A stretch of DNA of 64,000 nt from Tumebacillus lacus (lineage in GTDB: Bacteria; Bacillota; Bacilli; Tumebacillales; Tumebacillaceae), in the NCBI RefSeq assembly GCF_026410385.1, contig NZ_JAPMLT010000013.1:1-64000 (forward strand), read 5' to 3'. How positions within the stretch are numbered: position 1 is the first letter of the stretch; each line of letters starts with the position of its first letter. This document shows, piece after piece, positions 6,361 through 25,129 of this stretch. The notes below the pieces were generated by a model. The model saw nothing but the letters and a program-made list of their open reading frames with translations. It was not told the origin of the DNA and ran no database searches. The position numbers were made by a program, and so were the translations under genes.

Positions 6361-6390
6361 CAGGCACGGACAGAATGCAATGGCAAGCAG

Positions 6391-6430
6391 ATCACTCAGC
6401 CTCTGTAAAGAGGTTGGGTGATTTTGTTTT
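6391..6430 (+). terminator. Terminator after the glycine-rich gene
   Basis: A long imperfect stem (ATCACTCAGCCTCT against AGAGGTTGGGTGAT, with a 4-nt loop) is followed by TTTGTTTTT. It separates the glycine-rich gene from the biosynthetic operon. Confidence 0.8.
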
Positions 6431-6457
6431 TATTAACTGTTTGTATTTGTAACGTTG

Positions 6458-6487
6458 TTGACCAGGTGTATTCATCTAACTTATAAT
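6458..6487 (+). promoter_or_regulatory. Sigma-A-type promoter of the 6.5-25.1 kb operon
   Basis: TTGACC (6458-6463) and TATAAT (6482-6487) are separated by 18 bp. The start would lie near 6494, about 30 nt before the first start codon. No comparable promoter is evident inside the cluster, where gene gaps are mostly under 25 bp. Confidence 0.7.
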
Positions 6488-6524
6488 TATTTATAAAGTC
6501 ACTGGTTTGGGAGGGGGTGAAATT

Positions 6525-7711: not shown

Positions 7712-7987
7712 ATGACGCAAGTAATGGCTCTGGAAGAACAGGTAAAAGCAATGATCATCGAACGTCTCGGGCTTGAGGTCGACGCGAGCACGGTGGATGT
7801 CGACGCCCCGATCTTTTCTTCGTTTGACGCAGAGGGCGAGGGCCTTGGTCTCGACTCGATCGACGCGCTGGAATTGGTCGTCGCGCTGAACGAGACGTTC
7901 GACATCCAAGTGGGTGACGAGGACATGGCGGTGTTCCGCTCGATTCAGACGATCGCCGACTTTATCCGCGAGAAAAAAGGCGAGTAA
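7712..7987 (+). CDS. Acyl carrier protein
   Basis: This 91-aa protein has the four-helix ACP pattern with the phosphopantetheine site G-L-D-S-I-D-A, Ser49. The segment before the site (D-A-E-G-E-G-L) is longer and more acidic than in housekeeping AcpP, as is common for ACPs dedicated to type II PKS or amino-acyl pathways. The start is set by AAAGGGG upstream of the ATG. It is followed after 5 bp by the ketosynthase, with which it presumably works. It should carry the growing chain and later present it to the BtrH-like acyltransferases. No phosphopantetheinyl transferase is encoded in the cluster. Confidence 0.9.
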   Translation: MTQVMALEEQVKAMIIERLGLEVDASTVDVDAPIFSSFDAEGEGLGLDSIDALELVVALNETFDIQVGDEDMAVFRSIQTIADFIREKKGE

Positions 7988-10807: not shown

Positions 10808-10816
10808 GGCAGGAGG

Positions 10817-12163
10817 ATGCAGCCGATGTATGATGTGATCGTGTTGGGCTCGGGGTTGACCGGGCTTGCGGCAGCGGCGTTGCTGGCTCGGGATGGTCAG
10901 CGCGTGCTGCTGATCGGCGATGGGCAGGAAGCGGAGGCGGAGGCGTGCTTTCCGCTGTATCACAATGATGCCGAGCAAGGGGTGCTGGCGATGCTGCTCG
11001 ACCGATTGGGCGCGGACGTGACGCGCACGCCGTTGCCGGTGATCGACCGCATCCTGTTGCCGGGATCGGGTGTGGAACTGCGGCGTCCGCGTGTGTTTGC
11101 CGCGTATCGCGAGGAGTTGGAGCAGCGCTACCCGGAGGCGAGAGACGCGCTGGCGAAATACTTCGATGTCGTCGAAGGGCTCGGACGCGAGTGGCTGGGC
11201 GTGCTGGCGGGCGACCTGCGGATGGTGCCGCAGGATGTGCCGTATTGCATGCGCTATTTTTCGCTGACCTATGCCAAGTTTGTGCAGAAGACGTGCGGAG
11301 AGTACCCGCAGCTGGCCGCCGTGCTGTCGGCAGGATTGCCAACTGCCGATACGGCGTTGACGGTGATGGCGGGCTATCTGTATGGGCAGGTGTTCGATGC
11401 GTGTGTGCTCGATGGCGGATTGCCGGCTGTCAGGCGAGCGCTCGATGAGGTGCTGGAGAGGTACGGCTGCGAGCGGGTCACGACGCGGGAGCCTGTCGAG
11501 CTGTTGCCGGCAGCGGAGGGGCTCGGCGTGCGGTTCGCAGACGGGAGCGTCTGCCGGGCTGGCTGCCTGCTCGATACGCGCGGTGACGGGGAGGAGCCGG
11601 GTCCGGCCGATGCCAGGCTGTCGTTTTTCTCGGTGTTGATCGTGTTGCAGGAACCGATGACCCGGTTGCCGGGGGCGGAGGTGTGGCACGTGTTGCCTGA
11701 GAGGGATGTCAGCGGGATGCTCAGCGCTTTGGAAACGGGCGATCTGCCGGACGAGGTGCCGCTCGTGCTGTGGAACCCGGATGCCAGAGCGGGGCTCGCG
11801 GAAAAAAGGCGGTTGCGGATCGATGTGCCGGTCGCCGCGTTGGGGTCGGAGGCTGCGTACGATGAGCTGCTCGGGAAGGTGATGGCACAGGCGGAATCAT
11901 GCCTGCCCGGGCTCGGTGCACGCATCGCGTCAGTCACAGCGGTGACACCGGAGGAGCACGGACGGCAGACTGGCTGGGACGGCGGCAGCGGCACCCGCTG
12001 GGCGTTTTCGGTGAAGCGGGTGATGAAGGACCCGCTGAACATGGAAACGCAGCGGACACAGCTGTATGACACGAAACAATGGGGATTTGCTTGGTTTTCG
12101 GCGGCGTATGTCGCGGCCCGGCAGATCCGGCTGCAAGGGAACAGGCCGCTGGCCGAATCTTGA
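10817..12163 (+). CDS. CrtI-like FAD oxidoreductase (2 of 3), divergent
   Basis: This 448-aa protein starts with V-I-V-L-G-S-G-L-T-G-L-A-A-A-A-L-L-A, a clear FAD/NAD Rossmann motif. Overall size and segment order match the CrtI/RetSat superfamily, but the second FAD-contact motif (E-x-x-x-x-x-G-G) is replaced by a G-D-G-Q-E-A-E-A-E-A segment near residue 35. The C-terminal FAD-binding glycine cluster is weak too. Flavin binding may therefore be altered, or the protein may be a non-catalytic partner of one of the two better conserved paralogues. It lies 9 bp after the first flavoprotein gene. Codon use is very G-rich, like its neighbours. Confidence 0.7.
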   Translation: MQPMYDVIVLGSGLTGLAAAALLARDGQRVLLIGDGQEAEAEACFPLYHNDAEQGVLAMLLDRLGADVTRTPLPVIDRILLPGSGVELRRPRVFAAYREELEQRYPEARDALAKYFDVVEGLGREWLGVLAGDLRMVPQDVPYCMRYFSLTYAKFVQKTCGEYPQLAAVLSAGLPTADTALTVMAGYLYGQVFDACVLDGGLPAVRRALDEVLERYGCERVTTREPVELLPAAEGLGVRFADGSVCRAGCLLDTRGDGEEPGPADARLSFFSVLIVLQEPMTRLPGAEVWHVLPERDVSGMLSALETGDLPDEVPLVLWNPDARAGLAEKRRLRIDVPVAALGSEAAYDELLGKVMAQAESCLPGLGARIASVTAVTPEEHGRQTGWDGGSGTRWAFSVKRVMKDPLNMETQRTQLYDTKQWGFAWFSAAYVAARQIRLQGNRPLAES

Positions 12164-12182
12164 GAGGAAGGGATGTGCCCGC

Positions 12183-13418
12183 GTGCAATTGCAATTGGCG
12201 TTACGCAACCTGACGCGCCGCAAGAGCCGGACGATTCTCACCGCGATCACGATCATGCTCGGGGTGATGATGATGTTGCTGTCGATCGGCTACAACAATG
12301 GGATCGACAAGCAGATGACCGATCTGGTCACGCGCAATCTGACGGGCGATCTGCTCGTTCAGCCGCAGGATGCGAAGTTCTACGACGTGTTCAAACCGGC
12401 GAAAGCAAACGGTCCGGTGATCCCGTCGCTGGCAGACACCCGCAGCAAACTGGGTGCGGTCGAAGGCGTGGAGCAGGTCGCTCCGCGCAACCGTGTCGGC
12501 GGACTGATGCGCACGTCAGAGAGCGATGTCGGGCTGATCATGATCGGGGTGCTCGCAGATGCGGAGGCCGCATTTAACAAGCATCTGCAGGTGATCGAAG
12601 GCGAGAGTCTGTCCGCCTCGGCTCCGCAAGGCGTGTTGATCTCCGACACGATCGCAAAGGAGCAAAAATTGAAGGTCGGCGATACGGCCGTCTGGACGTC
12701 CAGTGACAAAAACGGCGCGATGCAGGAGAAGCAGCTGACGATTCGCGGCATCTATGAAGGCGATGCATACACGTCAAACCAACTCTTCGCCGGGATCGGT
12801 CTGTCGCAGCAAGTGCTGGGGCTGAAAGCGGACGAGGCGCAGGAACTGGCTGTGATCCTCAAAGAGAACAGCGATACAGAAGCGGCCAAGACGGCTGTGG
12901 CAGACGCCGCGAAGAGCGGGTCTCTGCCTGTGCAGGTCTTTACGTGGCAAGAAAAAGGCGGCTTTTTCTCCGGCATCGTCTTGGGCAATGGGGTGTCGTT
13001 TGGCGTAATGGTCGGAATTTTATTTGTCGCGATCATCTTTGGCCTGATGAACTCGGTGGTGATGACGATCAAGGAGCGCACCGGCGAGATCGGCGCGATG
13101 ATGGCGATGGGCACGCCGGGAGGGCAGATCCTGCGTCAACTGATGCTGGAGCAAACTTGGCTGACCGGGATCGCTGCTCTCATCGGCATCGGCCTCTCCT
13201 ACGGCCTGATCTCGTGGCTCGGTCAAGTCGGCATTCCGGCGCCCGCACCGGCCATCGAGTTTGCATTTGGCGGCAAGGCGCTGTATCTGACGATCAGTTG
13301 GGTACATCTCGCACTCACGTTTGTGACTGCGCTGGCGGTGGCTTTGCTGGCGACGTTGTTCTCGGGGTATAGCATCGTACGGATGAAGCCGGTCGATGCG
13401 CTGCGGGAACTTTCCTGA
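12183..13418 (+). CDS. FtsX/LolE-type ABC transporter permease (1 of 2)
   Basis: This 411-aa permease has the MacB/LolC/FtsX topology. A TM helix lies near residue 17-40 after a basic N-terminus (L-R-N-L-T-R-R-K-S-R-T), followed by a large extracytoplasmic domain (about 45-270) and three C-terminal TM helices (about 275-400). The cytoplasmic loop after TM2 carries K-E-R-T-G-E-I-G-A-M-M-A-M-G-T, a hallmark of the family. GTG at 12183 is chosen because GAGGAAGGGATG lies upstream; a longer frame would begin inside the previous gene. It pairs with the next permease and the ATPase at 15150. Family members extract lipids or lipopeptides from the membrane, or export them. Confidence 0.85.
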   Translation: MQLQLALRNLTRRKSRTILTAITIMLGVMMMLLSIGYNNGIDKQMTDLVTRNLTGDLLVQPQDAKFYDVFKPAKANGPVIPSLADTRSKLGAVEGVEQVAPRNRVGGLMRTSESDVGLIMIGVLADAEAAFNKHLQVIEGESLSASAPQGVLISDTIAKEQKLKVGDTAVWTSSDKNGAMQEKQLTIRGIYEGDAYTSNQLFAGIGLSQQVLGLKADEAQELAVILKENSDTEAAKTAVADAAKSGSLPVQVFTWQEKGGFFSGIVLGNGVSFGVMVGILFVAIIFGLMNSVVMTIKERTGEIGAMMAMGTPGGQILRQLMLEQTWLTGIAALIGIGLSYGLISWLGQVGIPAPAPAIEFAFGGKALYLTISWVHLALTFVTALAVALLATLFSGYSIVRMKPVDALRELS

Positions 13419-13431
13419 GGAGGAGTAGGAT

Positions 13432-14670
13432 TTGAGATCGATCATAGGGATGGCCTTTCGCAACATCTTCCGTCAGAAGCGTCGCACGTTCTTGCTGGGG
13501 ATCTCCATCGTGCTGGGCACGTTTGTGTTGATCCTCGGCCTGTCGTTTGTTGACGGGATACAAAAGCAACTGTTTGAAAATATGCTGGTGCAACAGACGG
13601 GGCACTTTGTCGTCCATCACGAGTCGCATCCGGTCGACTCGTCGCCGATGGCGAAACCGGACACCGATCTCGACCACGCGTTGAGCGATGATGCGGCTTT
13701 GGAAAAAGAGATCGCCGGGATGCCGGGCATCGAACGGGTGATCAAGCAGACGACGTTCGCCGGCTCGCTGGCGAACGAATCAGGGGTCTCGGCGGTGACG
13801 GTGATCGGTCAGTCGGGGATGAACGGTGAGCCGTTGGCCGACATCGTGAACGCGACGGCCGCGTCTTCCGATCCAAAAAGTGAAGGGCTGTATCTGCCGA
13901 AGTCGCTGAGCGAGGAACTGGACTTGTCTGTCGGCGATGAGGTGACGCTGTTTGTCCGCAACGACGCGGGCGAGATGCGGCAGGAATTATTTGCTGTCAA
14001 AGGGGTTTTCGACTCGGTGGCTCCGTGGCTGAGCAGCAACGCGTACATCTCGCTGGAGCGGGCTCAGCAAATGCTCGGCAGCGAAGGCAAGAGCATGGAG
14101 TGGCTGGTCTACGGTGAAAAGAGCGCGGACCTGGCAGCGCTGGAAGCGGCGCTCGACTCCAAAACGGCGGCGAAAAGCGGCTGGCAGGTCGCGACGGCTG
14201 AGGAAGCGGGCGGGTTTTACGCGGGGGCGACGCTGGGGTTTAAGGCGTTGCTGATCGTGAATCTCTCGTTGATTTTCATCGTCGTGGCGATGGGGATGAC
14301 CAACCTGATGCTGATGGCATCGCTGGAGCGCACCAAAGAGATCGGCACTCTGCTGGCTCTGGGCACTCCGCGTGCAAAAGTGGCATGGCTGCTGATCTTG
14401 GAAGCGTTGATCATCGCTCTGCTGGCGACGGCTGTCTCGGCGGTGCTCGGGGTGGCGACCGTTTCGTGGCTGGGGTCTGTCGGCATTGATCTGCAGGTGG
14501 AAGCGATGAAATACAGCATCGGCGGGACGAAAGTGTACCCGGTGCTGTCGGTGACCAATCTGCTGCTGACGCTCGGTGTCGTGACGGTCGTGATCTTCCT
14601 CGCGGCGCTGTATCCGGCGGTGAAAGCGTGCCGCTGGTCGCCGATCCGCGCGTTGCGCGGGCAGTATTAG
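13432..14670 (+). CDS. FtsX/LolE-type ABC transporter permease (2 of 2)
   Basis: This 412-aa paralogue of the preceding permease has the same layout: N-terminal R-N-I-F-R-Q-K-R-R-T then TM1, a long extracytoplasmic domain, and three C-terminal TMs. The loop E-R-T-K-E-I-G-T-L-L-A-L-G-T lies near residue 303. The start is TTG with GAGGAGGAG upstream. Two different permeases in one operon suggest a heterodimer as in LolC-LolE. The extracytoplasmic domains differ considerably between the two, as expected if each does a separate job. No MacA-like adaptor or outer-membrane partner is present, consistent with a Gram-positive cell. Confidence 0.85.
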   Translation: MRSIIGMAFRNIFRQKRRTFLLGISIVLGTFVLILGLSFVDGIQKQLFENMLVQQTGHFVVHHESHPVDSSPMAKPDTDLDHALSDDAALEKEIAGMPGIERVIKQTTFAGSLANESGVSAVTVIGQSGMNGEPLADIVNATAASSDPKSEGLYLPKSLSEELDLSVGDEVTLFVRNDAGEMRQELFAVKGVFDSVAPWLSSNAYISLERAQQMLGSEGKSMEWLVYGEKSADLAALEAALDSKTAAKSGWQVATAEEAGGFYAGATLGFKALLIVNLSLIFIVVAMGMTNLMLMASLERTKEIGTLLALGTPRAKVAWLLILEALIIALLATAVSAVLGVATVSWLGSVGIDLQVEAMKYSIGGTKVYPVLSVTNLLLTLGVVTVVIFLAALYPAVKACRWSPIRALRGQY

Positions 14671-14682
14671 GAGGGGTGACAG

Positions 14683-15135
14683 GTGTATCGACCGTTTGTG
14701 ATCGAGATCGTCCCGCGCTTTAGTGACACCGATGCGTATGGGGTGGTCCACCACAGCAATTATTACAAGTGGATCGAGGAAGCCCGCTTTGCGTTTACCC
14801 GCGAGGTGTTGCAGTTTGAGATGCAGGACTTCGAAGAGCGGGGCTTGCGTATTTTCGTGCTGGAGAGCTCCTGCAAGCATAAAGTTCCGGTGCGCTACGG
14901 TGACCGCCTGCGGGTCGAGTTGTTGATCACGATCAGCAAGGTGGCGAAGTGGGTGTTCCACTATCGCGTCGTCAACGCGGTGACCGGGCACCTGCATGCA
15001 GAAGCGATGACGTCGCACGCCTATGTGACGCCGGACGGCAAGATGCTGCTCAACCACCCGCAGTGGCTCTGGGAGCGGGTCGAGCGGGCGTTGGAGGAAG
15101 ATCCGGGCAAGTATGTGAAGGACGTGCAGCGGTGA
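14683..15135 (+). CDS. Hot-dog acyl-thioesterase (4HBT/YbgC type)
   Basis: This 150-aa single hot-dog domain carries the 4HBT signature F-S-D-T-D-A-Y-G-V-V-H-H-S-N-Y near residues 13-27, with the catalytic Asp position filled (D-A-Y-G). The family hydrolyses acyl-CoA or acyl-ACP thioesters. Thioesterases of this type are common in aryl polyene and other type II FAS-like clusters, where they release or edit chains. The GTG start follows AGGAGGGGTG. It is placed between the ABC permease and ATPase genes, 12 bp after one and 14 bp before the other, showing that transporter and assembly genes are interleaved. Release or proof-reading is the inferred role. Confidence 0.85.
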   Translation: MYRPFVIEIVPRFSDTDAYGVVHHSNYYKWIEEARFAFTREVLQFEMQDFEERGLRIFVLESSCKHKVPVRYGDRLRVELLITISKVAKWVFHYRVVNAVTGHLHAEAMTSHAYVTPDGKMLLNHPQWLWERVERALEEDPGKYVKDVQR

Positions 15136-15149
15136 GGGGAGAGACATCA

Positions 15150-15872
15150 ATGGCGAAGGCAGTCTTGAAAGTGGAAGATGTGAGAAAGGAATTTGTGCTC
15201 GGCTCTCATCGGCAGACGGTGCTCAAAGGGGTGAACATCGAGGTGCTTTCAGGTGAGTTCGTCGCGCTGGCCGGTCCGTCCGGATCGGGCAAGTCTACGC
15301 TGCTCAACCTGATCGGCTGCCTCGACGTGCCGGACGGCGGCTCCATCGAGATCGACGGGGTGGAGGTCGGCCGGCTCAGCGCGAAGGAGCAAGCGCGCAT
15401 CCGGCGGGAAAAGATCGGCTTTGTGTTCCAAAATTTCAATCTGCTGCCGGTCTTGACGGCTGCTGAAAACGTCGAGTACCCGCTGACTCTGCTCAAAGTG
15501 AGCGCAGCGGAACGCAAAGAGCGAGTGCGCAAAGCGCTCGATGTGGTCGGTCTCACGGAGCACATGCACAAGCGCCCGACGGAGATGAGCGGCGGGCAGC
15601 AGCAACGCGTCGCGATCGCCAGAGCACTGGTGACGGAACCGACGGTGATCCTCGCCGATGAGCCGACGTCGCATCTTGATCAGGAAAACAGCGAGATTGT
15701 CGTGCGCCTGATGCAGCGGCTCTCCCGGGAGGAAGGCGTGACGTTTCTGTTCACGACGCATGATCCGGGCGTGATGGCGGAGGCGAGTCGGGTGATTCGG
15801 CTGCGCGACGGGCTGATCGACGCTGGAGCAGCGTCCGAAGCGGCGGCTGCCTCTGCCGTAGACGGGAACTAG
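15150..15872 (+). CDS. LolD/MacB-type ABC transporter ATPase
   Basis: This 240-aa ATPase has Walker A G-P-S-G-S-G-K-S-T near residue 39, the Q-loop F-V-F-Q-N-F-N-L-L-P near 93, the signature M-S-G-G-Q-Q-Q-R-V-A near 146, and Walker B V-I-L-A-D-E-P-T-S-H-L-D. The switch His is in T-T-H-D. Length and the F-Q-x-F-N-L-L-P pattern place it in the LolD/FtsE/MacB group, which pairs with FtsX-fold permeases, and two such permeases lie just upstream. The usual Gly before L-D in the D-loop is replaced (T-S-H-L-D). The start is the ATG after GAGGGGAGAG. It presumably powers export or membrane extraction of the cluster product. Confidence 0.92.
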   Translation: MAKAVLKVEDVRKEFVLGSHRQTVLKGVNIEVLSGEFVALAGPSGSGKSTLLNLIGCLDVPDGGSIEIDGVEVGRLSAKEQARIRREKIGFVFQNFNLLPVLTAAENVEYPLTLLKVSAAERKERVRKALDVVGLTEHMHKRPTEMSGGQQQRVAIARALVTEPTVILADEPTSHLDQENSEIVVRLMQRLSREEGVTFLFTTHDPGVMAEASRVIRLRDGLIDAGAASEAAAASAVDGN

Positions 15873-15884
15873 GAGGCGGGATCG

Positions 15885-16919
15885 ATGAGCACACCGCGTT
15901 ATACCTTTCCCCGCCTGATTCAGTTCGGGCAGCCGACGGAACCTGTCTGGCTGAGCGGGGTGCGCAACAAATTGGCGGCGGACGGACTGATGCTCAGTTC
16001 GCCGCTGCTGCTGTTGCTCTGTCAAGGGCTGGATTTTTATTATCGCAGCGCGCGTTCCTTGCAGGCGCAGGAGGGACTGCTCGCCATCTCCGGCAAGAGC
16101 ACGATGCTGTGGGCCAATCTGTCCGCGACGCTCGGGTTTTATTTGGAGGACTACCGGATGCGGAACCTCGATCATTTACGAGAAGAGATCAACCGCAATG
16201 TGATGATGCGGGTGTCGCCGCCGATGATCGAAATGGACGGGGTGCTGATGCTGGCAGCCGGGCTGGCCGACGAAAAAGAGTCGGTGATGCTGATTCATCC
16301 TGAAAAGAATGAATATTTTAAAGTTTCCTACGAAGAACTGGGGAAGCGGGGGATCGAGACATCCCGTTTGCCAGGCAGCGAAGGGCAGACCGGGGTGCGA
16401 TGGCTGATGATCAATTCGCCGTCGTTTGCCAAGCCGGTCTTTCCGCCGCTGCATCAGGCGGTGCGGTCGGCGCTGGAAGTGTGGGCGCATCGCACGTTGC
16501 ACATGCCGGATCTGCCGGAGACGTTCCGTCTGACGGGGCGGCAGGCGTATGCGGTATGGGCAGAGGATCTGCGCGAACTGGCGACGGGCAAGGCGGGCTG
16601 GCAGCGGCAGGTGGAGCAGGTGCTGGCGATGTCGAGAGCGGATTTCGGCCCGGCATGGGGGCGCGATCTGTGGGCGGCCGCGTTGCGGGAAGCACAGTCG
16701 TTGATCGGGACAAGCCTGGAACCGGTGATTGCGAGCTATGAGCGGTCTGCGGACATGTGGGTGGAGTGGACGGCCCGACTGGCGGCGGTGGAGCAGGACG
16801 CACCGGAGCGGTTGGCCGAGGCGGCCGATCTGTTTGACGATCTCGCGTCGCGGGAACTGGAAGCGGCGGGGCTGCTGACCCTGATGCTGACCGGTGAAGA
16901 GTTGCGCGAGACGGTGTGA
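15885..16919 (+). CDS. BtrH-family homologue lacking catalytic residues
   Basis: This 344-aa protein is the first of three tandem paralogues. From its N-terminus to about residue 190 it follows the same order of segments as the two downstream proteins (a G-L-D-F-Y-Y-R block, L-G-F-Y-L-E-D-Y, then strands ending Y-F-K-V-S-Y-E-E-L). Aligned by eye, the catalytic Cys position is Val/Trp near residue 21-22, and the His and Asp positions are also changed (K-E-S-V-M-L-I region). It is therefore probably a non-catalytic scaffold or partner. The C-terminal half is helical, like the DUF4872 region of the family. The assignment rests on similarity to its neighbours, not on a direct family motif. Confidence 0.55.
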   Translation: MSTPRYTFPRLIQFGQPTEPVWLSGVRNKLAADGLMLSSPLLLLLCQGLDFYYRSARSLQAQEGLLAISGKSTMLWANLSATLGFYLEDYRMRNLDHLREEINRNVMMRVSPPMIEMDGVLMLAAGLADEKESVMLIHPEKNEYFKVSYEELGKRGIETSRLPGSEGQTGVRWLMINSPSFAKPVFPPLHQAVRSALEVWAHRTLHMPDLPETFRLTGRQAYAVWAEDLRELATGKAGWQRQVEQVLAMSRADFGPAWGRDLWAAALREAQSLIGTSLEPVIASYERSADMWVEWTARLAAVEQDAPERLAEAADLFDDLASRELEAAGLLTLMLTGEELRETV

Positions 16920-16943
16920 ATGGAGGAGAGGGGGCAAGGGTGG

Positions 16944-18056
16944 ATGGTGTTGCTGGAGGATTTTCAACATCGGCTCAGCGTGACGTGCCGAGCGGGAAAC
17001 ATCCGCGATGTGCTGGCTTATAAAGGCCACTCGATGTCGGAGGCGATGGTGTTTGGCGTCGCCAACTCGCTGTCGTTTTATTATGTGTTGCCTGACGAGA
17101 CTTTGGAGCGGTCGGAGTACGTGCTGATCTCGGGCAATTCACACCTCGGTCTCGAAGATGTGGCGAGCAATCTGTCGCTCAGCTACGAGACGTGGCTGCC
17201 GGAAAGCGAAGAGCAGAAGTGGAAGCATGTCCGCGAACTGCTGGAGGCGGGGCATCCGGTGTTTATGGACGCGGTGCTCTCGATGTACATGCACCATCTG
17301 CGGGCGACGCCGCTGTTTGGAATGGGCGGCAGTGCGGCGGAGCGAGAGGGGTTTGTCTCGAACTGGGACGACATGTTCTCCCGGCTGCAGATTCCGGCGG
17401 GGACGCATCTGGCGGTGGTGATCGGGCTGGATGAGGAGAAGGGCGAAGCGTATATCATCGAAAATAATTTGAGCGGCATCCAGACGGTGCCGATCCGCGT
17501 GCTGGCAGAGGCGAGCAATCCGAAGATGGATGTGACGCTGCATCCTCAGGGGCGATATTCCATCTACAACATCCCGCAAGAGCTGCCCGCGCTGGCTCAG
17601 ACGATCTCGCGAGCGATCCCGATGACGATGCAAAGCTTCCTTGGTGGTGACTTCCCGTGGCGGGGTATCGGCGCGCTGGATCGGCTGGCTCGCGATCTGC
17701 GGCATTGGCCGGAGATGTTGCCGATGGAGTTCGTGGAGAACTCCATGCACATGATCTATTACGTGTCGGAAGTGGCGAGCGGCGGCGGACTGTATCGCCG
17801 TCTGTACAGCCGCTATTTGAAAGAAGCGGCCGCGATCTGCGGTGATGACCGGCTTGCGGCCGTGTCGAAAGAGTATCAAGTGTTGGCGAAGCAGTGGCGC
17901 ACGTTTACGAAGGGGCTGTCAGACGGAGCGGGGAGAGCGGCGGAGACTTTGCGCTCGGAGTCGCTCAACGATCTGATCGGCGAGATCGCCGCACAGGAGC
18001 GCAAAGCGGCGGAGACGCTCGCGGAGTGGCTGCCGGGCGGGGAGTTGGCACGATGA
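16944..18056 (+). CDS. BtrH-like acyltransferase with Cys-His-Glu
   Basis: This 370-aa second paralogue starts at ATG 16944, which gives M-V-L-L-E-D-F and matches the M-K-R-L-D-D-F start of the next gene. It also lies 9 bases after an AGGAGAGGGGG RBS that overlaps an alternative ATG at 16920. Putative catalytic residues by alignment to the third paralogue are Cys15 (S-V-T-C-R-A-G), His155 (G-T-H-L-A-V-V-I-G) and Glu173 in place of Asp. BtrH_N-DUF4872 proteins are cysteine acyltransferases; BtrH moves a gamma-glutamyl-aminobutyryl unit from ACP BtrI to an aminoglycoside amine. A similar ACP-to-amine transfer is inferred here. It overlaps the next gene by 4 bp. Confidence 0.7.
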   Translation: MVLLEDFQHRLSVTCRAGNIRDVLAYKGHSMSEAMVFGVANSLSFYYVLPDETLERSEYVLISGNSHLGLEDVASNLSLSYETWLPESEEQKWKHVRELLEAGHPVFMDAVLSMYMHHLRATPLFGMGGSAAEREGFVSNWDDMFSRLQIPAGTHLAVVIGLDEEKGEAYIIENNLSGIQTVPIRVLAEASNPKMDVTLHPQGRYSIYNIPQELPALAQTISRAIPMTMQSFLGGDFPWRGIGALDRLARDLRHWPEMLPMEFVENSMHMIYYVSEVASGGGLYRRLYSRYLKEAAAICGDDRLAAVSKEYQVLAKQWRTFTKGLSDGAGRAAETLRSESLNDLIGEIAAQERKAAETLAEWLPGGELAR

Positions 18057-19087
18057 AGCGGTTGGACGATTTTATCGAAGTGAACCGGCTCGGTTCGCAT
18101 TGCGGGTCGTCCGCGTTGCGGGTGATCATGCAGGGCAACGGGTATGACTTGTCGGAGGATATGTGCCTCGGGCTCGGGAGCGGCCTCGGTTTTATTTATC
18201 AGCGTTATCTGACGGTGGACTATTACTTTTTCACCGGCCGCAACGAGAGCTTGCAGGAAAATCTGGCGGGGGTGCTCGGCGCTCGTCTGGAAGCAGGCCG
18301 CACAGATGACCCGGAGGTGGGCTGGTTGCAGGCGAAAGAGCTGGTCGACGCGGGCATTCCGGTGATGCTCGATCTCGACATGATGTACCTGCCCTATCTC
18401 GTGGAGCATGCCAAACTGGACAGGCCGTTTCATTTCGGCCTGCACAATGCGATCCTCGTCGGCTATGACCAGAGCAGAGGGACGGCTCTGTTGCTCGACT
18501 ATCTCTGGCGGGAACCGAAGGAAGTGCCGATGGAGCAACTGACCGCCGCCCGCAACTCGCAGACGGCGCCGATCAAGCCGGAAAACGCGTGGAAGGCGCT
18601 GATCATGCCGATGGAAAAGCGCGACCTGCACACGGCCGTTCGCGAGGCGATCGACTTGAACGTCCATCGGATGCGCTATCCGTTTGCGTTTAAGATGGGT
18701 CTGCCGGGACTGAAGATGTTTGCCCGGGAAATCAGGAAGTGGCCGGAGCAGATGACGCCGGATGAACTCATGAACAACGCCTACATGGCAGCCGAGTTGT
18801 TTGAGCGGATCGGCACGGGCGGGGGGAATTTCCGTCGGATGTATGCGCGGTTTTTGAAAGAGGTGTACTGGCTGACGGGACAGGAGATGTATCAGGATTG
18901 TTCTGCGGCGTATATGGAGTTGTTCCGCAGATGGCGTCGCGTCGGCAAGCTGTTCGAGGAGGCGGCTGCTGATCCCCGTCAAGGGATCTTTGCAGACGAT
19001 CCGGCTGTGGATGAGGAACTGCGTGAATTGGTCGATCTGGAGTATGCGGCGATCGATCGCTTGGAGTTGGCTGTTCGCTCTTACTAG
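18053..19087 (+). CDS. BtrH-like acyltransferase with intact Cys-His-Asp
   Basis: This 344-aa protein is the best match of the three to the butirosin BtrH N-terminal domain plus DUF4872. The N-terminal nucleophile is G-S-H-C-G-S-S-A-L-R (Cys17), followed by the glycine-rich L-G-L-G-S-G-L-G-F block (39-47), His131 in F-G-L-H-N-A-I-L-V-G and Asp149 in L-L-L-D-Y. The C-terminal half is helical. Known BtrH catalyses transfer from an ACP thioester to an amine, forming an amide. With a dedicated ACP and an aminotransferase in the same operon, the inferred role is to acylate an amine with the assembled chain. ATGA overlap couples it to the preceding paralogue. Confidence 0.8.
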   Translation: MKRLDDFIEVNRLGSHCGSSALRVIMQGNGYDLSEDMCLGLGSGLGFIYQRYLTVDYYFFTGRNESLQENLAGVLGARLEAGRTDDPEVGWLQAKELVDAGIPVMLDLDMMYLPYLVEHAKLDRPFHFGLHNAILVGYDQSRGTALLLDYLWREPKEVPMEQLTAARNSQTAPIKPENAWKALIMPMEKRDLHTAVREAIDLNVHRMRYPFAFKMGLPGLKMFAREIRKWPEQMTPDELMNNAYMAAELFERIGTGGGNFRRMYARFLKEVYWLTGQEMYQDCSAAYMELFRRWRRVGKLFEEAAADPRQGIFADDPAVDEELRELVDLEYAAIDRLELAVRSY

Positions 19088-19107
19088 ATCAAGGGGGTAA
19101 TCAGGGA

Positions 19108-19545
19108 ATGTTGGGTATGCAGGAAATCATGCGGGCCTTGCCGCACCGCCATCCGTTTCTGATGGTGGATCGCATTGTGGAAGCGGTACCGAACGAGCGA
19201 TCCGCCGGGTACAAGCACATTTCGGTCAACGAACCGTGGGCTGCCGGACATTTTCCGGACGAGCCGGTGTTTCCCGGCGTGCTGATCATCGAGACGATGG
19301 CGCAGATCGGCGGGTTTGTCTTTTGGACGGAGGAAGGCGGCACGAACCAACTGCGCGGCTATCTGAGCGGCGTGGACAAGGTCAAATTTTTGCGTCCGGT
19401 GCTGCCGGGTGACACGCTGCATGTCGAGGCCAAATTTGTCGCGCGCGTCGGGCAACTCGCACAGGTGAAATGCGAGGCAAAGGTCGGCGGTGAACTGGTG
19501 GCGTCTGCGGTGGTCTCCTATGCGTTCAAAGGGGCCGGAGCGTGA
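19108..19545 (+). CDS. 3-hydroxyacyl-ACP dehydratase, FabZ-like
   Basis: This 145-aa hot-dog dehydratase has the canonical FabZ residues: P-H-R-H-P-F-L-M-V-D-R-I (residues 12-23), catalytic His48 in A-G-H-F-P-D-E-P-V-F-P-G-V and Glu62 in I-I-E-T-M-A-Q. It converts 3-hydroxyacyl-ACP to trans-2-enoyl-ACP. No enoyl reductase is encoded in the cluster, so repeated KS-KR-DH cycles would leave double bonds and yield a polyene, as in highly reducing type II PKS and aryl polyene pathways. It lies between the BtrH-like genes and the CLF-like gene, and AAGGGGG serves as RBS. Confidence 0.93.
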   Translation: MLGMQEIMRALPHRHPFLMVDRIVEAVPNERSAGYKHISVNEPWAAGHFPDEPVFPGVLIIETMAQIGGFVFWTEEGGTNQLRGYLSGVDKVKFLRPVLPGDTLHVEAKFVARVGQLAQVKCEAKVGGELVASAVVSYAFKGAGA

Positions 19546-19585
19546 CGATGTGCGGGACGAATTTGATAAAAAAGGGGGATCAGTC

Positions 19586-20773
19586 ATGAAACGAGTGGTC
19601 GTGACGGGCATGGGTATACTCTCCAGCGCCGGGGTTGGCGTGGAGCAATTTTGGAACGCGCTGCTGACAGCCGGGCGGGGGATCGCGGAACCTGTGCGAA
19701 AGGTGGAGATCCCGCAGGTGTTGAAACCGGGGCTGGCGCGGCGGATGGACCGGTTTTCTTACATGACGCTGGCGGCGGGGAAAATGGCGCTGGAGGACAG
19801 CGGCATTTTGGCAGCGGAGCCGGATCTGAACCGGGTCGGCACGGTGTTCACCACCGCATATGGCGCGCTGGCGAGCAATGTGGAATTTGCCCGCAAGCTG
19901 CTGACGGCGGGGCCCAATCTGACGTCGCCGACGGTGTTTGCGTCGACGGTGGCGAACGCGTGCATCGGGCATACGTGCATGAACCTCGGCCTGAAAGGGG
20001 CAAGCACGATGTTGATGGGCTCGTCGGCGGTCGGATATGGATTTGATGTTCTTCGTGCCGGCCGAGCCGATGCACTGTTGGCGGGCGGGATCGAAGAGTA
20101 TCACGAGAGCGTGGAAACGTCGTTCCGGCAGAAGGGGTTCCTCGAAGCTGGTCTAGAGCCGGGCGTGGTCGTGTGCCGCCCGCTGGATAAAAACCGCCAA
20201 GGCGTCGCGTTGCGCGAAGGGGCGGCTGTGCTGGTGATGGAGACGCTGGAGCACGCAGAGGCGCGCGGGGCGAACATCCTCGGCGAAGTGCGCGGCTATG
20301 GCGGCGGATTTTCGGCGATCTCGCCGGAGCGGGCTGTCGAGCCGATCGACAGCAAATCGTTTGCGGATGCAATGCTGACGGCGTTGGCCGATGCACAGAT
20401 TACGCCGGAGCAGATCGACGCGGTGGTGATGGCGGCAGGCGGCTCTCGCGGCGGTGACTATGCGGAGGCGATGGCGCTGCATGATGTGTTTGGCGAGCGG
20501 GGCCGCACGATCCCGGTGACGACCAGCAAAGGTCTGACCGGCGAAGCGATGGGAGCGACTGCGTCGATGGGCATCGCGACGGCGATCCTTGCGGTGGCGC
20601 ATCAGACGTTGCCGCCGACGGCGGGCTATGCCGAGGCGGATGAGCGGCTGCAATTGAATGTGGTCGCTGGCACGCAGCTGTCCGGCGAGTACCGCTATGT
20701 GCTGGTCAACGGCTTTGACATCGGCGGGAACATCGCGTCGTTGGTCTTGGCAGCAAAGGAGGGGCAGGTATGA
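19586..20773 (+). CDS. Chain-length-factor-like ketosynthase homologue without active-site residues
   Basis: This 395-aa FabF-fold protein keeps the scaffold (V-V-V-T-G-M-G-I-L-S-S-A-G-V-G-V at the N-terminus, R-A-G-R-A-D-A-L-L-A-G-G near 158-168) but loses the catalytic set. The Cys position falls at Met142 in T-M-L-M-G-S-S. The N-A-H-G-T motif is replaced by A-A-G-G-S-R-G, and the second His is Glu in S-K-G-L-T-G-E. This is the pattern of KS-beta/CLF subunits, which dimerise with an active KS and set chain length. ATG at 19586 follows AAAGGGGG; a longer frame from 19490 would overlap fabZ. It overlaps the ketoreductase gene by ATGA. The partner KS is 10 kb upstream. Confidence 0.85.
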   Translation: MKRVVVTGMGILSSAGVGVEQFWNALLTAGRGIAEPVRKVEIPQVLKPGLARRMDRFSYMTLAAGKMALEDSGILAAEPDLNRVGTVFTTAYGALASNVEFARKLLTAGPNLTSPTVFASTVANACIGHTCMNLGLKGASTMLMGSSAVGYGFDVLRAGRADALLAGGIEEYHESVETSFRQKGFLEAGLEPGVVVCRPLDKNRQGVALREGAAVLVMETLEHAEARGANILGEVRGYGGGFSAISPERAVEPIDSKSFADAMLTALADAQITPEQIDAVVMAAGGSRGGDYAEAMALHDVFGERGRTIPVTTSKGLTGEAMGATASMGIATAILAVAHQTLPPTAGYAEADERLQLNVVAGTQLSGEYRYVLVNGFDIGGNIASLVLAAKEGQV

Positions 20774-21513
20774 AGCTGACAGGGAAAGTTGCGTTGGTCA
20801 CCGGCGGGTCTCGAGGCATCGGCCGTGCCATCGCCGAGCGATTTGCCAAGGAAGGCGCGACGGTCGCGTTGACCTACGTGCATGGCGAAGCGGCTGCGGC
20901 AGATGCGGTGGCGGCGATCACGGCAGCGGGAGGCACTGCCCGCGCCTATCAGGTGGACATCGCTGACGAGGAGCAGGTGCGGATGCTGATGAAGGCGGTC
21001 GCTGATGATTTTGGCCGCATCGACATCCTCGTGAACAACGCTGGGGTGACGGCAGACTCCTATCTGATGATGATGAGCAAGACCAACTGGGACAAGGTAC
21101 TCGACACCAATCTTGGCGGCATTTTCAACGCCTGCAAGCAAGTTCTGCCGCTGATGCTCCGTCAAAAGGGCGGCAGTATCGTCAATGTCACCTCCGTATC
21201 CGGTCTCGTCGGCACGCCAGGGCAGACCAACTACTCGGCAGCGAAACACGGGATCATCGGCCTGACCAAATCTCTGGCGCGGGAGATCTCCGGCAAAAAC
21301 ATCCGGGTCAATGCGATTGCCCCCGGATACATCGAGACCGACATGCTGAGCAAAGTGCCGGAGAAGATGCGAGACGAGTATGTGACGCGCGTCCCGGCCA
21401 AACGGTTCGGCCAGCCGGATGAGGTGGCAAAAGCGGCAGCGTTCCTCGCGTCGGATGAAGCGAGCTATATCATCGGACAGACCCTCGTCGTGGACGGCGG
21501 GCTGCTCAGCTAA
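20770..21513 (+). CDS. 3-ketoacyl-ACP reductase, FabG-like
   Basis: This 247-aa short-chain dehydrogenase has T-G-G-S-R-G-I-G-R-A-I (cofactor loop, residues 11-21), N-N-A-G-V near 89, and catalytic Ser near 142, Tyr155 and Lys159 (Y-S-A-A-K). Length and motifs fit FabG, which reduces 3-ketoacyl-ACP with NADPH. It is translationally coupled to the CLF-like gene. Together with KS-CLF, ACP and dehydratase it completes a minimal elongation cycle minus enoyl reduction. The housekeeping fabG is probably elsewhere, since no other core fab genes are adjacent. Confidence 0.92.
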   Translation: MKLTGKVALVTGGSRGIGRAIAERFAKEGATVALTYVHGEAAAADAVAAITAAGGTARAYQVDIADEEQVRMLMKAVADDFGRIDILVNNAGVTADSYLMMMSKTNWDKVLDTNLGGIFNACKQVLPLMLRQKGGSIVNVTSVSGLVGTPGQTNYSAAKHGIIGLTKSLAREISGKNIRVNAIAPGYIETDMLSKVPEKMRDEYVTRVPAKRFGQPDEVAKAAAFLASDEASYIIGQTLVVDGGLLS

Positions 21514-21525
21514 GGAGGGCTCGTG

Positions 21526-22269
21526 ATGCAACAGGCAGGAAAGACGACGTTGATCACCGGTGCTGCGGGCGGTCTTGGCGCGGCCTGCGCCCGGTTGTTT
21601 GCGGCGCAAGGGGGCAATGTGGTTCTGTTCGACCGCTCGTTGGATGTGAGGCAGGTCGCGGAGGAACTGGGTGATTGTGCCGTCGCGTTCGTTGGCGATG
21701 TGATGAAGGTGGAAGATCTGGAGAGCTGCGTCCAAGCGGGCATCGAGCGATTCGGCCGCATCGACAACCTGATCGCGTGCTCCGGTATCGTCCGTTCCGG
21801 CACGGTGACGGAGACGGCGTTGGAGGACTGGCAGCATGTGATCGATGTGAATCTCACCGGCGTCTTTCTCAGTTGTCAGGCGGTGTTGCCTGTGATGGTG
21901 GAGCAAAAATACGGCCGCATCGTCACTGTATCCTCGCATTTCGGACTGGTCGGCGCGACGAAACTGGCCGCGTACTGCGCAGCGAAGGGCGGCGTGATCC
22001 AACTGACCAAGTCGATCGCGCTCGACTACGGGCGGGTCGGCATCCGCGCCAACTGTCTCGCGCCCGGCATGATGCAGACGAACATGCTCAACGAGATCAT
22101 GAGTCAAGTCGGGATGTCGACCGACTGGGTGGCGATGATGCGCGGACTGCCGACCGGCATCCCGAAGCCGGAGCAGGTGGCGCAGTCGGCGCTTTATCTC
22201 GTCTCGGATGCGACCGAGTCGATGACCGGCTCCGTGTTGACGGTCGACGGCGGCTACACGGCGCGCTAA
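21526..22269 (+). CDS. Second short-chain dehydrogenase of the cluster
   Basis: This 247-aa SDR has T-G-A-A-G-G-L-G-A-A near residue 10 and the catalytic Y-C-A-A-K near 151. The usual N-N-A-G is changed to A-C-S-G-I. An Asp at the end of the second strand (L-F-D-R-S, near 36) suggests a preference for NAD(H). It is only distantly like the adjacent FabG, so it probably acts on a different substrate, for example oxidising an alcohol to a ketone or aldehyde that the adjacent aminotransferase could then aminate. That pairing is an inference from position. ATG 21526 is preferred over GTG 21523 for spacing from AAGGAGGG. Confidence 0.85.
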   Translation: MQQAGKTTLITGAAGGLGAACARLFAAQGGNVVLFDRSLDVRQVAEELGDCAVAFVGDVMKVEDLESCVQAGIERFGRIDNLIACSGIVRSGTVTETALEDWQHVIDVNLTGVFLSCQAVLPVMVEQKYGRIVTVSSHFGLVGATKLAAYCAAKGGVIQLTKSIALDYGRVGIRANCLAPGMMQTNMLNEIMSQVGMSTDWVAMMRGLPTGIPKPEQVAQSALYLVSDATESMTGSVLTVDGGYTAR

Positions 22270-22281
22270 GGGGGAGAGCTT

Positions 22282-23688
22282 GTGCCAGAACAAGGGCAAG
22301 GGAAAGGGAAAGGGAAAGGAAAGGTCACGCGTCAGGATGCAGCGGCGGTCTGGCATTGTTGGAATCAGATGGAAGTCTATCTCCAGCAGATGTTTACGGT
22401 GATCGACGATGCGGAAGGTGTGGAGATGACCGATCAGGACGGAAAAGTTTATCTCGACGCGAACTCCTCGCTGTGGAATGTGAACATCGGGCATCGCAAT
22501 CAAAAGGTGATCCATGCGATCACCGAGCAATTTCAACGGCTCGATCATGCGTCGTTATTTTTGTCCACGAACTCGCCAGCCGTCCATCTCGCAAAGAAGT
22601 TGAAAGAGATGACCGGGGATCGGTACGGGCACGTCTTCTATACAAACAGCGGCTCGGAGGCGACCGACACGGCGATCAAGATCGCCCGGCAGTATTTCTA
22701 CAATCGAGGGGAGACGGAGCGGTACAAAGTGATCTCGCTGCATCGCGGGTATCATGGCAGCACACTCGGGGCGATAAGCGCCTGCGGGATTCCCTATGAC
22801 AAGCGGGCGTTTGGGCCGTTGATGCCCGGTTTTTTCCAAGCGGTGGTGCCAGATCCTTTCGATGCGCCGGAGGGCATGACGGCCGATGAGTGGGCAGAGG
22901 TTTGCCTGGAGGAGTTGCGGCTGTTGATCGAGCAGGAAGGCCCGGAGACGGTCAGCGCGTTCATCGCCGAACCGGTGCAGGGCTCGGAAGGCGTGTGCGT
23001 GATCCCGGACTCGTACTGGCGCGGGGTGCGCGAACTGTGCGACCGCACGGGCATCTTGTGGATCAGCGATGAGATCGCGACCGGATTTGGCCGCACGGGG
23101 CGGATGTTTGCGGCCGAGCACAGCGGGATCTGGCCCGATCTGATGCTGCTCGCCAAAGGGATCACATCAGGCTATCTGCCGCTTGGGGCGGTGTTGGTGC
23201 CGAAGATTGTCTTTGACGAATTTCTCGGCTCGGTTAAATTGGAGCGCGAGTTTGTCCACGGCTTCACGACCAGCGGGCATCCGGTGGCGTGTGCTGCTGC
23301 TCTGGCAAACATCGAAGTGATCGAGGAAGAGGGACTTGTCGCCAACTCGGCAGCGGCAGGGTCGTATTTGTTGGAAGGGATGCTCGCATTGAAAGAGAGG
23401 TTCCCGAGCATCGTCGATGTGCAGGGGAAAGGGCTGCTGCTCGGCATCCGGCTGGCGAAGTGGACAGGCAAATCGCCGATGACGGCAGAGTGGCCGCCTG
23501 CGATGCTGGCGATGAATTTTCTGGCCAAGCGCGGGCTGATCACGCACGCGGCCGGAACCCATGCGGTGGTGCTGGCTCCGTCGCTGACGTTTACCGCCGA
23601 ACACTGCGACCGCGTGTTGCAGGCGTTCGCACAGGTGTTGACCACGCTGGAGAAGATCTGGGGGCGAGAGAAATATGTCTCAACTTGA
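22282..23688 (+). CDS. Class III PLP-dependent aminotransferase
   Basis: This 468-aa aminotransferase has N-S-G-S-E-A-T near residue 122, Y-H-G-S-T near 157, the PLP-ring Asp in S-D-E-I-A-T-G-F-G-R-T-G (Asp263), and the Schiff-base lysine in L-L-A-K-G-I-T-S-G-Y (Lys292). This is the omega-aminotransferase type (BioA, taurine/putrescine-pyruvate and similar). Residues 4-14 form a short Gly-Lys run from a GGGAAA DNA repeat, probably disordered. GTG is the start after AAGGGGGAG. It could supply an amine at the chain terminus or make a small amine acceptor for the BtrH-like enzymes. It overlaps the next gene by 14 bp. Confidence 0.9.
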   Translation: MPEQGQGKGKGKGKVTRQDAAAVWHCWNQMEVYLQQMFTVIDDAEGVEMTDQDGKVYLDANSSLWNVNIGHRNQKVIHAITEQFQRLDHASLFLSTNSPAVHLAKKLKEMTGDRYGHVFYTNSGSEATDTAIKIARQYFYNRGETERYKVISLHRGYHGSTLGAISACGIPYDKRAFGPLMPGFFQAVVPDPFDAPEGMTADEWAEVCLEELRLLIEQEGPETVSAFIAEPVQGSEGVCVIPDSYWRGVRELCDRTGILWISDEIATGFGRTGRMFAAEHSGIWPDLMLLAKGITSGYLPLGAVLVPKIVFDEFLGSVKLEREFVHGFTTSGHPVACAAALANIEVIEEEGLVANSAAAGSYLLEGMLALKERFPSIVDVQGKGLLLGIRLAKWTGKSPMTAEWPPAMLAMNFLAKRGLITHAAGTHAVVLAPSLTFTAEHCDRVLQAFAQVLTTLEKIWGREKYVST

Positions 23689-25129
23689 TGTTATCGTGAT
23701 CGGCGGCGGCATCGCCGGGCTGGCGAGCGGCGCACGGCTCGCGGATGAAGGGTATCGGGTGCGGGTGTTGGAGCAAAGTGAGAGCGTCGGTGGCTATGCG
23801 GGGTGTTTTGAGCGCGGTGGCTACCGGTTCGACACCGGTGCTCATCATATCGGGGGCTTAGCGGAAGGAGATGTGCTCGACCGTCTGCTCACGCGGCTCG
23901 GCGTGCGGGAGGAGATCGAAGCGATCCCGTCGCCGCCGTTGCAGGCGACGTTTGGAGGCGAGACGGTGCCTGTGCCGTTCTCGATGGAGGAGTTGCTCCG
24001 CGTCTTGACCGAAGCCGCGCCCGGTGATCGGACGGCTCTGCTGGGGATCACAGAGGAGATCCGTGCTTTTTCGCGGGCATTGATCTCGAGCGATGGCAAC
24101 GCGATCTATGAGTTCTTTAAAAAATGGAGCTCGGTCACGTGGGGCGCGTACCTGGCTGACCGGATCACCTCTTTGCAGGCGCTCGGCATCCTGTCTGCGC
24201 TTGGTCCCGGATATGGCGGCATCACAGCAAACGGTTCCGCTTTGGCGATGGCGAGTCTGTTGGCGACGTATCATGAGGGCGCCTTTTATATCAAAGGCGG
24301 GACTCATCGCCTTCCCGACCTGTTAGCCGCCGCAATTGAACAGCGCGGCGGCGAGGTTTGGACCGAGGCGTCGGCGGAGCAGATCCTCGTCGAGGACAAG
24401 CGCGTCACCGGAGTCGTGTGCCGCCGCGGGGAGGACGTGGTGGAGATGCGAGCACCTGTCGTGCTCGTCGCGTCTTCGCTCCGGTCGGCGTATCAGATGA
24501 TCGATCCGGCTGCGATCGGCGACCGTTTCAAACAGCGGCTCGGGCAGATGAAAGTCGGGCCATCCGCGTTTCGTTTGTATCTGTCTGCGAAGGAAGGGTA
24601 CAAGCCTGTGGGCAACGATCTGCTCTATTTCCCGGGGTGGGATGCCCGCCAATGGGATGACGATGTCTTCTACAGCACGTTCCGCCACAGCGACGAGCGG
24701 ATGCCTGCGACGCTGGTCTGCTTCCCTTCGATGGTCGACCGGTCGCTCGCCCCGCCGGATGCACATGTGATGTTCATGACGATCCTCACGCACGAGACGG
24801 AGCAGACGGCAACGCCGGAGTTGCAAGAGCGGATGCTTCAGATCGCCGAGCGGATGGCGCCTGGCATTCGCGGTGCAGCTCTGCATTACGAAATCGCCGT
24901 GCCGCAGACGTTCCATCGCCGCACGCGCAACGACCGCGGCTCGGTATTCGGCTGGGAACGCTCACCGGAGCAGAGCCTGCGCACCAACGCGCTGGCACCG
25001 AAAGGCGCGCTGTCAGGCCTGTATGTCGCCGGACAATGGGGCCCGAACAACGGCATCTACGGCGGGGCACTGACCGCTGAAGCAGCGGCGGTCGCGATTC
25101 TCAGCGAGCGAGCCAAACTCGCTCTGTAA
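23675..25129 (+). CDS. CrtI-like FAD oxidoreductase (3 of 3), last gene of the cluster
   Basis: This 484-aa flavoprotein has V-I-G-G-G-I-A-G-L-A-S-G-A near residue 7 and E-Q-S-E-S-V-G-G-Y-A-G near 31, the full CrtI/RetSat N-terminal FAD signature. The C-terminal FAD-contact segment L-Y-V-A-G-Q-W-G-P-N-N-G-I-Y-G-G lies near 450. It is better conserved than the second flavoprotein and only moderately like the first, so the three are not recent duplicates. The predicted activity is FAD-dependent desaturation, saturation or isomerisation of an unsaturated chain. It overlaps the aminotransferase gene. No terminator is obvious after it before the small gene at 25219. Confidence 0.85.
   Translation: MSQLDVIVIGGGIAGLASGARLADEGYRVRVLEQSESVGGYAGCFERGGYRFDTGAHHIGGLAEGDVLDRLLTRLGVREEIEAIPSPPLQATFGGETVPVPFSMEELLRVLTEAAPGDRTALLGITEEIRAFSRALISSDGNAIYEFFKKWSSVTWGAYLADRITSLQALGILSALGPGYGGITANGSALAMASLLATYHEGAFYIKGGTHRLPDLLAAAIEQRGGEVWTEASAEQILVEDKRVTGVVCRRGEDVVEMRAPVVLVASSLRSAYQMIDPAAIGDRFKQRLGQMKVGPSAFRLYLSAKEGYKPVGNDLLYFPGWDARQWDDDVFYSTFRHSDERMPATLVCFPSMVDRSLAPPDAHVMFMTILTHETEQTATPELQERMLQIAERMAPGIRGAALHYEIAVPQTFHRRTRNDRGSVFGWERSPEQSLRTNALAPKGALSGLYVAGQWGPNNGIYGGALTAEAAAVAILSERAKLAL

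Follow-up and report, generated by a model that had tools for sequence, protein, structure and literature searches.

Three divergent BtrH-type proteins encoded side by side in a Tumebacillus lacus gene set, one of them without a catalytic triad

Within the 64,000-nucleotide stretch of Tumebacillus lacus DNA that we analysed (contig NZ_JAPMLT010000013.1, positions 1 to 64,000; hereafter the window), three adjoining genes on the same strand, here called A, B and C, encode members of the BtrH_N/DUF4872 family, and one of the three proteins has no catalytic triad. BtrH itself is described as an acyltransferase. What, then, would a gene set of the type II fatty acid synthase/polyketide synthase (FAS/PKS) kind do with three such proteins, and what would it do with the one that lacks its triad? 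The initial annotation of the locus had proposed a tandem triplication with graded decay, leaving one active acyltransferase, one copy of altered specificity and one scaffold. The answer that we favour, while granting it somewhat less than an even chance, is that C and probably B transfer acyl groups from an acyl carrier protein (ACP) and that A is a catalytically dead hetero-partner of B and C. The three genes are these:

15885..16919, + strand: BtrH copy A, 344 amino acids (aa); helical DUF4872 domain retained, catalytic N-domain degenerate (Pfam, alignments, model)
16944..18056, + strand: BtrH copy B, 370 aa (378 from the ATG at 16920); Cys15-His155-Glu173, with an insertion ahead of His155 (Pfam, alignments)
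18053..19087, + strand: BtrH copy C, 344 aa; Cys17-His131-Asp149, 28 of 29 conserved columns (Pfam, alignments, model)

Hidden Markov model searches with the Pfam families confirmed that three BtrH-family genes stand in tandem. DUF4872 matched all three proteins above its cut-off of 28 bits (A 37.1, B 97.4, C 110.9), whereas BtrH_N matched B (64.5) and C (107.2) above its cut-off of 29.7 bits and A (17.3) below it. Against a profile of 26 homologues containing none of A, B or C (drawn from 34 candidate loci; of the 27 with a tblastn match, L027 was excluded), A scored 61.6 bits, compared with at most 5.3 bits among 2000 shuffled versions of A and 2.9 for the best other open reading frame (ORF) of the window of at least 100 aa. 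Because its score so far exceeds both controls, we conclude that A is a member of the family, and the possibility that it is unrelated was ruled out by the Pfam DUF4872 score together with the shuffles.

The reading frames themselves look sound. A is a full-length ORF with AGGAGG before its start, 12 bases past the ABC ATPase gene, and its codon-position GC content resembles that of its neighbours. The first ATG of B (16920) comes immediately after the stop of A; judged by the sequence ahead of it, the likely start is the ATG at 16944, preceded by GGAGGAGAGGGGGCAAGG, and the catalytic cysteine of B is Cys15 from this codon and Cys23 from 16920. The mechanical ORF of C opens at a GTG (17894), and homology begins at the ATG at 18053, overlapping the stop of B, which is most likely the true start.

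The triads named in the initial annotation, read there by eye, were recovered residue for residue by script: Cys17/His131/Asp149 in C and Cys15/His155/Glu173 in B, counted from the ATG at 16944. Its statement that A lacks Cys and His also held, and the Asp column has changed as well, since Val21, Val120 and His138 stand at the three catalytic columns in the profile, five-row and 47-row alignments. Two poorer alignments shift the middle of A (three rows give Val/Glu/Ile, and a set with only one other class gives gap/Lys/Tyr); no alignment brought back Cys, His or Asp. A frameshift hiding the cysteine of A was ruled out, no other frame of 15600-16950 encoding the family N-terminus. Among 44 aligned homologues, a set that includes several near-identical rows, Cys is present in 44, His in 43 and Asp in 44. 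One ORF with a non-colinear N-terminus and Leu at the Cys column (L040) belongs to the 26-row profile and is excluded from the 44; with it, the count for Cys is 44/45. When A, B and C are added, B is the sole row of the 47 with Glu and A the sole row without Cys. These alignments make it very probable that A is dead as an acyltransferase. A different kind of change is seen in a sister species (G010; L053/L007), whose single BtrH copy has Tyr in place of the catalytic His and retains Cys and Asp; this row (L007) stays in the count of 44.

Conservation in A is unevenly spread. The family's 29 conserved columns are kept at 28 positions in C, 18 in B and 12 in A, and in the catalytic domain the figures are 15/16, 9/16 and 4/16, respectively; in its helical domain, A keeps 8 of 13. 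Eight columns are identical in all 44 homologues. A has lost the three that fall in the catalytic domain, and of the five in the helical domain only one has changed, with Gly218, Arg260, Trp292 and Glu324 kept. The helical-domain Arg, which is Arg261 in C and lies within the motif GTGGGxxR, is found in 47 of 47 rows, including A (Arg260). A is without two of the three glycines of this motif that were scored as conserved, and without the stretch bearing the family's Leu113 and Tyr115. Because the triad has been replaced while four of the five invariant helical residues, Arg260 among them, remain, we suggest that A may lend its helical domain to a partner.

Is B impaired? Compared with C, its Cys-to-His spacing is 26 residues longer, its Asp is replaced by Glu, and the conserved His ahead of the Cys is missing. 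Such an altered site fits the earlier proposal of a second copy with changed specificity; what did not survive is the use of Glu as a sign of loss. In CcbD/LmbD, the reaction follows a ping-pong course that depends on a carrier protein and uses a Cys-His-Glu triad (PMC12945683). Because this triad works in enzymes that share the fold of the C model, B need not be impaired or a step towards loss, and we set aside Glu alone as proof of lost function; B itself has no sequence match to CcbD. Its pocket is probably remodelled, which would mean another acyl or acceptor preference, and by analogy we incline, by a narrow margin, to an active B of altered specificity. That C is an active acyltransferase we regard as likely, given its residues.

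The C model, built from a four-row alignment with a predicted local distance difference test score (pLDDT) of 76.2, has the two-domain fold of CtaG, CcbD and AziU, with VIA Z scores of 15.4-18.3 over 265-289 residues. The best match is a chain of the AziU2-U3 complex (Z 18.3, root-mean-square deviation (rmsd) 5.8 over 289 residues), and CtaG (15.4-16.1) and CcbD (15.5-15.6) are close behind; the next matches are partial (Z at most 13.7), the C-terminal domain being matched by helical bundles and the N-terminal domain by C39-like peptidases. PDB titles name CtaG variants C11A, H128A and D144N and CcbD variant C19S. For the low-confidence A model, the AziU, CtaG and CcbD families again rank first (VIA Z 12.9, 11.6 and 10.2), and Foldseek gives an E value of 1.7e-5 to CtaG. 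We gave up the view that the AziU2 and AziU3 subunits are related to each other, since the structure match list does not reveal this, and accordingly give hetero-oligomer readings slightly lower odds.

The trio sits midway in a co-directional type II FAS/PKS gene set of about 18.6 kb, from 6507 to 25129, whose genes are separated by short gaps or overlap. Its other members, and the signals found ahead of it by consensus scan, are as follows:

6389..6487, + strand: terminator-like hairpin (6389-6424), then promoter-like site (6458-6487; 11/12)
6507..7673, + strand: methyltransferase
7712..7987, + strand: ACP (GLDSIDALE)
7993..9219, + strand: ketosynthase (KS) KS1, with Cys162-His295-His332 present
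9221..10807, + strand: FAD oxidoreductase, CrtI/CrtISO-like
10817..12163, + strand: FAD oxidoreductase, weak matches only
12183..14670, + strand: two FtsX/MacB-type (LolCE-like) permeases (12183-13418 and 13432-14670)
14683..15135, + strand: 4HBT thioesterase (YbgC/FadM-type)
15150..15872, + strand: ABC ATPase (DevA/LolD-like)
19108..19545, + strand: FabZ dehydratase
19586..20773, + strand: KS2, homologue of ketosynthases, like a chain-length factor (CLF), without the Cys-His-His triad
20770..22269, + strand: two FabG/SDR reductases (20770-21513 and 21523-22269)
22282..23688, + strand: class III aminotransferase
23675..25129, + strand: CrtD/CrtI-like FAD oxidoreductase

This arrangement suggests that 6507-25129 is transcribed as a single operon. 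The consensus scan found 4 promoter-like sites where 4.7 are expected, so that such sites are no commoner here than in shuffled sequence, and 24 terminator-like ones where 15.5 are expected. The core of aryl-polyene and dar-type clusters is present (KS with a CLF-like partner, ACP, ketoreductase and dehydratase), and the scanned genes of 6507-25129, to which the search was confined, contain no aryl-starter genes (AMP-ligase, ammonia-lyase or chorismate lyase). From its gene content, the set looks like a Bacillota member of the world of FAS-like type II PKSs that make aryl polyenes and dialkylresorcinols, without the aryl-starter genes. The same gene set also holds a KS pair with a triad-less member, KS1 having Cys162, His295 and His332 and KS2 none of the three, and KS2 appears CLF-like in sequence. 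Elsewhere in this genome, contig C21 carries a second type II FAS/PKS locus at about 303-311 kb (L068), with a KS pair (one member with Gln for the active Cys), FabG, FabZ and a CrtI-like enzyme. The same contig, near 80.5 kb (L070:2893-3906), encodes a further BtrH_N protein of 337 aa (50.7 bits), whose gene adjoins, by eye, a fusion of PIG-L-type deacetylase and ACP and a DegT-type aminotransferase, and recalls aminoglycoside clusters. A fourth place above the BtrH_N cut-off lies on contig C12, inside an ORF of 2712 aa.

How might the trio act in this setting? We propose that the gene set would use its own ACP to build an acyl chain, reduced or polyene, through KS1/KS2, FabG, FabZ and the CrtI-like enzymes. 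C, and probably B, would be carrier-protein-dependent acyltransferases of the papain-like BtrH/CtaG/CcbD fold, whose active-site Cys would take over the ACP-bound chain as a thioester and whose His, together with Asp (C) or Glu (B), would activate an amine or hydroxyl acceptor. The product would then exit through the LolCDE/MacB-like ABC exporter. A would be a dedicated pseudoenzyme, pairing with C, B or both through the conserved helical domain. A precedent for a site shared between subunits is CcbD, in which the Cys is loaded from the carrier protein, two residues of the adjacent monomer, Arg263' and Asp264', form part of the acceptor pocket, and the carrier protein is contacted by Arg312, Arg316, Gln319, Arg323 and Arg324 (PMC12945683). 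The kept Arg260 of A may serve the acceptor pocket of its partner in a similar way; because CcbD has no sequence match to the family, the correspondence between its Arg263' and the family Arg is guessed solely from position. For CtaG, transfer of an acyl group from one carrier protein to another has been proposed. The net charge over 30 residues around the invariant Trp is -5 in A, +1 in C and +2 in B. Since the ACP is strongly acidic (-15), A may not dock it, an indication that is suggestive only. A bolder version, which we think rather improbable, is that BtrH acyltransferases dimerise, the helical domain of each subunit completing the active site of the other, and that A is an obligate dead "acceptor-pocket factor", the counterpart of a CLF, split off for that role in a hetero-oligomer with active subunits of the Asp and Glu types.

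A number of observations weigh against a partnership of this kind. No homologue of A was found elsewhere, which makes the constraint on A unmeasurable, and the contrast within A (8/13 versus 4/16) is small and was scored against 44 homologues that include near-identical rows. In the C model, residues 10-17 and 19-23, which flank the Cys, have a pLDDT below 50, and the rmsd values are high (4.8-5.8). The A model is poor (pLDDT 54.7), paralogues in its alignment may have steered the fold, and its Z scores of 10.0-12.9 fall in a range that the tool flags for helical proteins; profile searches of solved structures gave no sequence match to AziU, CtaG or CcbD. Gene context elsewhere is mixed as well. 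Seven other BtrH loci, mostly from Bacillota, have a KS in one case and an ABC ATPase in three; six annotated plasmid loci, which have no KS or ACP, instead carry P450, fatty acid-CoA ligase or tryptophan genes. Three sister species have a related FAS core (FabZ, a KS2-type protein, FabG, two ACPs, a KS1-type protein and 4HBT), and in each the 19.5 kb that we examined there contained nothing that matches A, B or C; genome-wide, two of these species have no DUF4872 match and the third has a single one, on a different contig. Finally, all 33 copies in the 15 tandem arrays described below are intact, so arrays need no dead copy.

Those arrays also bear on the novelty of the locus. Searches for DUF4872 in 398 genomes of the class, 398 of the phylum (overlapping samples) and 14 of the order revealed no tandem copies beyond the T. 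lacus genome. In another phylum, DUF4872 occurs in 45 of 345 genomes, and in the class of genome G1008 in 67 of 155, at least 15 of which contain tandem BtrH arrays of two or three copies. This ruled out the idea that only this window has BtrH genes in tandem; such arrays are not new. We compared 15 arrays, three of three copies and twelve of two, and each of their 33 proteins (5 of which belong to the 44 aligned homologues) has Cys, His, Asp and the helical-domain Arg; a partial second DUF4872 match (G1241:C96) lies outside the 15. In tandem arrays, a triad-less BtrH copy was observed only in this trio, and a literature search, which did not reach the structure papers of AziU3/U2 and CtaG, turned up no triad-less BtrH protein among the papers listed. 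A tblastn search of plasmids with A gave no match, a profile search of viral contigs gave no match to the trio, and a three-row profile search of genome contigs found two loci only, with one copy each. The arrays of intact genes are L106, L107 and L116-L128, all in another phylum; in the first, the BtrH genes alternate with ORFs of 127 and 136 aa that have no Pfam match. At L023/L028 (G351), a DUF4872 gene is in two pieces, with an internal stop codon, and is apparently broken.

The trio does not have the look of a recent triplication. A and B are 21.1% identical, A and C 20.2%, and B and C 24.7%, and C shares 34% identity with a protein from a Bacillota metagenome-assembled genome of another family; the three are no nearer to one another than to homologues elsewhere. 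By comparison, the copies of the BtrH triplet of G1008 are 62.5-69.2% identical. In a tree of 36 rows, the terminal branches are 1.68 for C, 2.85 for B and 5.21 for A. A single A+B+C clade is weakly disfavoured (p-AU 0.038, not firm with A as a long branch) and a B+C clade is not rejected (p-AU 0.267); a second tree, leaving out A and nine near-identical Bacilli rows, grouped B and C with support of 63/27, too low to establish the pair. These identities and trees rule out recent duplication as the source of A, B and C: the sequences indicate a trio that is old or of mixed origin. The stepwise loss and graded decay of the initial annotation are not supported, since Cys-His-Glu works in CcbD/LmbD and the three proteins are so far apart; against this, the divergence is itself graded (28, 18 and 12 of 29 columns).

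Three other explanations compete with a dead partner. The most serious of them, although we consider it unlikely, is that B and C are separate acyltransferases for different acceptors or steps and that A, once an acyltransferase, now serves on its own as a binding protein, with no complex at all. B and C are indeed far apart (24.7% identical, with the insertion, the Glu and changed pocket columns in B), A has the longest branch, and the arrays elsewhere are all intact and, in the two compared, 61-69% identical, as parallel enzymes should be; yet A is tightly packed between its neighbours and keeps the invariant helical-domain residues. An A that is simply functionless and being lost, after triplication with ongoing decay, is a good deal less probable still. 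The graded loss of columns and the lack of any orthologue found for A would be expected of such a relic, but A is full-length, has no stops and has normal codon-position GC despite very deep divergence, and its whole triad has been replaced while Gly218, Arg260, Trp292 and Glu324 are kept.

The remaining alternative is not acyl transfer at all. AziU3/U2 is functionally an aziridine synthase (PMC12559475), and a chain of the AziU2-U3 hetero-complex is the best VIA match of both the A and C models; the trio, or part of it, could therefore be a hetero-complex for ring closure or another substitution or elimination in which the Cys is dispensable. We think this very improbable. C and B retain both the Cys (conserved in 44 of 44 homologues) and the His (43 of 44), the gene set has no sulfotransferase match, the matches to CtaG and CcbD are almost as good, and for A it is CtaG that Foldseek ranks first. 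Overall, a dead hetero-partner for acyltransferases C and B remains our preferred, if tentative, reading.

Some support for a link to chain-building genes comes from BtrH loci in the other phylum. In the first eight of these, the 15-20 kb that hold the BtrH gene also contain an ABC ATPase in seven cases and a KS in seven. Nearby genes at L106 encode an ABC-2 permease and a lipid-A-type acyltransferase; those at L107 encode an MMPL-methyltransferase, an ACP and a KS, and there is a further, partial match to KS. The Azoarcus dar cluster is described as having a "BtrH-like peptidase" (darE) together with ABC, ACP and KS genes (PMC3949708). In another genome (L050, G620), a 9.3-kb contig has a BtrH-type protein beside a KS fragment and, by eye, a YcaO-like stretch; the N-terminus of its ORF is non-colinear with the family.

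These proteins matter because BtrH-type enzymes determine what an ACP-bound chain gets attached to. In the literature accessible to us, we found no reaction assigned to BtrH-type enzymes of pigment or lipid clusters of the FAS/PKS type, and the names given differ: NCBIfam calls DarH an acyltransferase, whereas PMC3949708 speaks of a peptidase. A gene set that brings together a complete copy, one with Asp changed to Glu and one lacking the triad would offer a natural test of homo- versus hetero-dimers and of a helical domain acting in trans.

How does the trio compare with known systems? BtrH of butirosin (BtrH_N, PF14399, plus DUF4872, PF16169) has the same domain order and carrier-protein context, and the Cys-His-Asp of C, but here there are three divergent copies, one of them triad-less, in a FAS/PKS set instead of an aminoglycoside cluster. 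The BtrH-like proteins of dialkylresorcinol and aryl-polyene clusters (NCBIfam DarH; Azoarcus darE) likewise stand beside an ABC exporter, KS and ACP, as seen at L106-L113 and in PMC3949708. Against the DarH equivalog NF053550, however, C (128.6 bits) and B (92) fall below the cut-off of 300 and A has no match, the Azoarcus listing shows one copy, and no aryl-starter genes were seen in the T. lacus gene set. CtaG (closthioamide) shares the fold and, judged from the mutants in PDB titles, the Cys-His-Asp of C; unlike the trio, it is a single gene in an NRPS-like (nonribosomal peptide synthetase-like) pathway. One chain of the AziU3/U2 hetero-complex, its subunit unspecified in the match listing, has the fold of the C model, and its aziridine-forming reaction is unlike the acyl transfer proposed for the trio. 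The product of that pathway is azinomycin. CcbD and LmbD, the lincosamide condensing enzymes, differ in having no detectable sequence similarity, amino-acid and sugar substrates and a single gene, but they share the fold of the C model, the Cys-His-Glu of B and dependence on a carrier protein. KS-CLF and AmcF-AmcG pairs have a different fold, and their likeness to the trio is one of principle only: an active protein working with an inactive partner.

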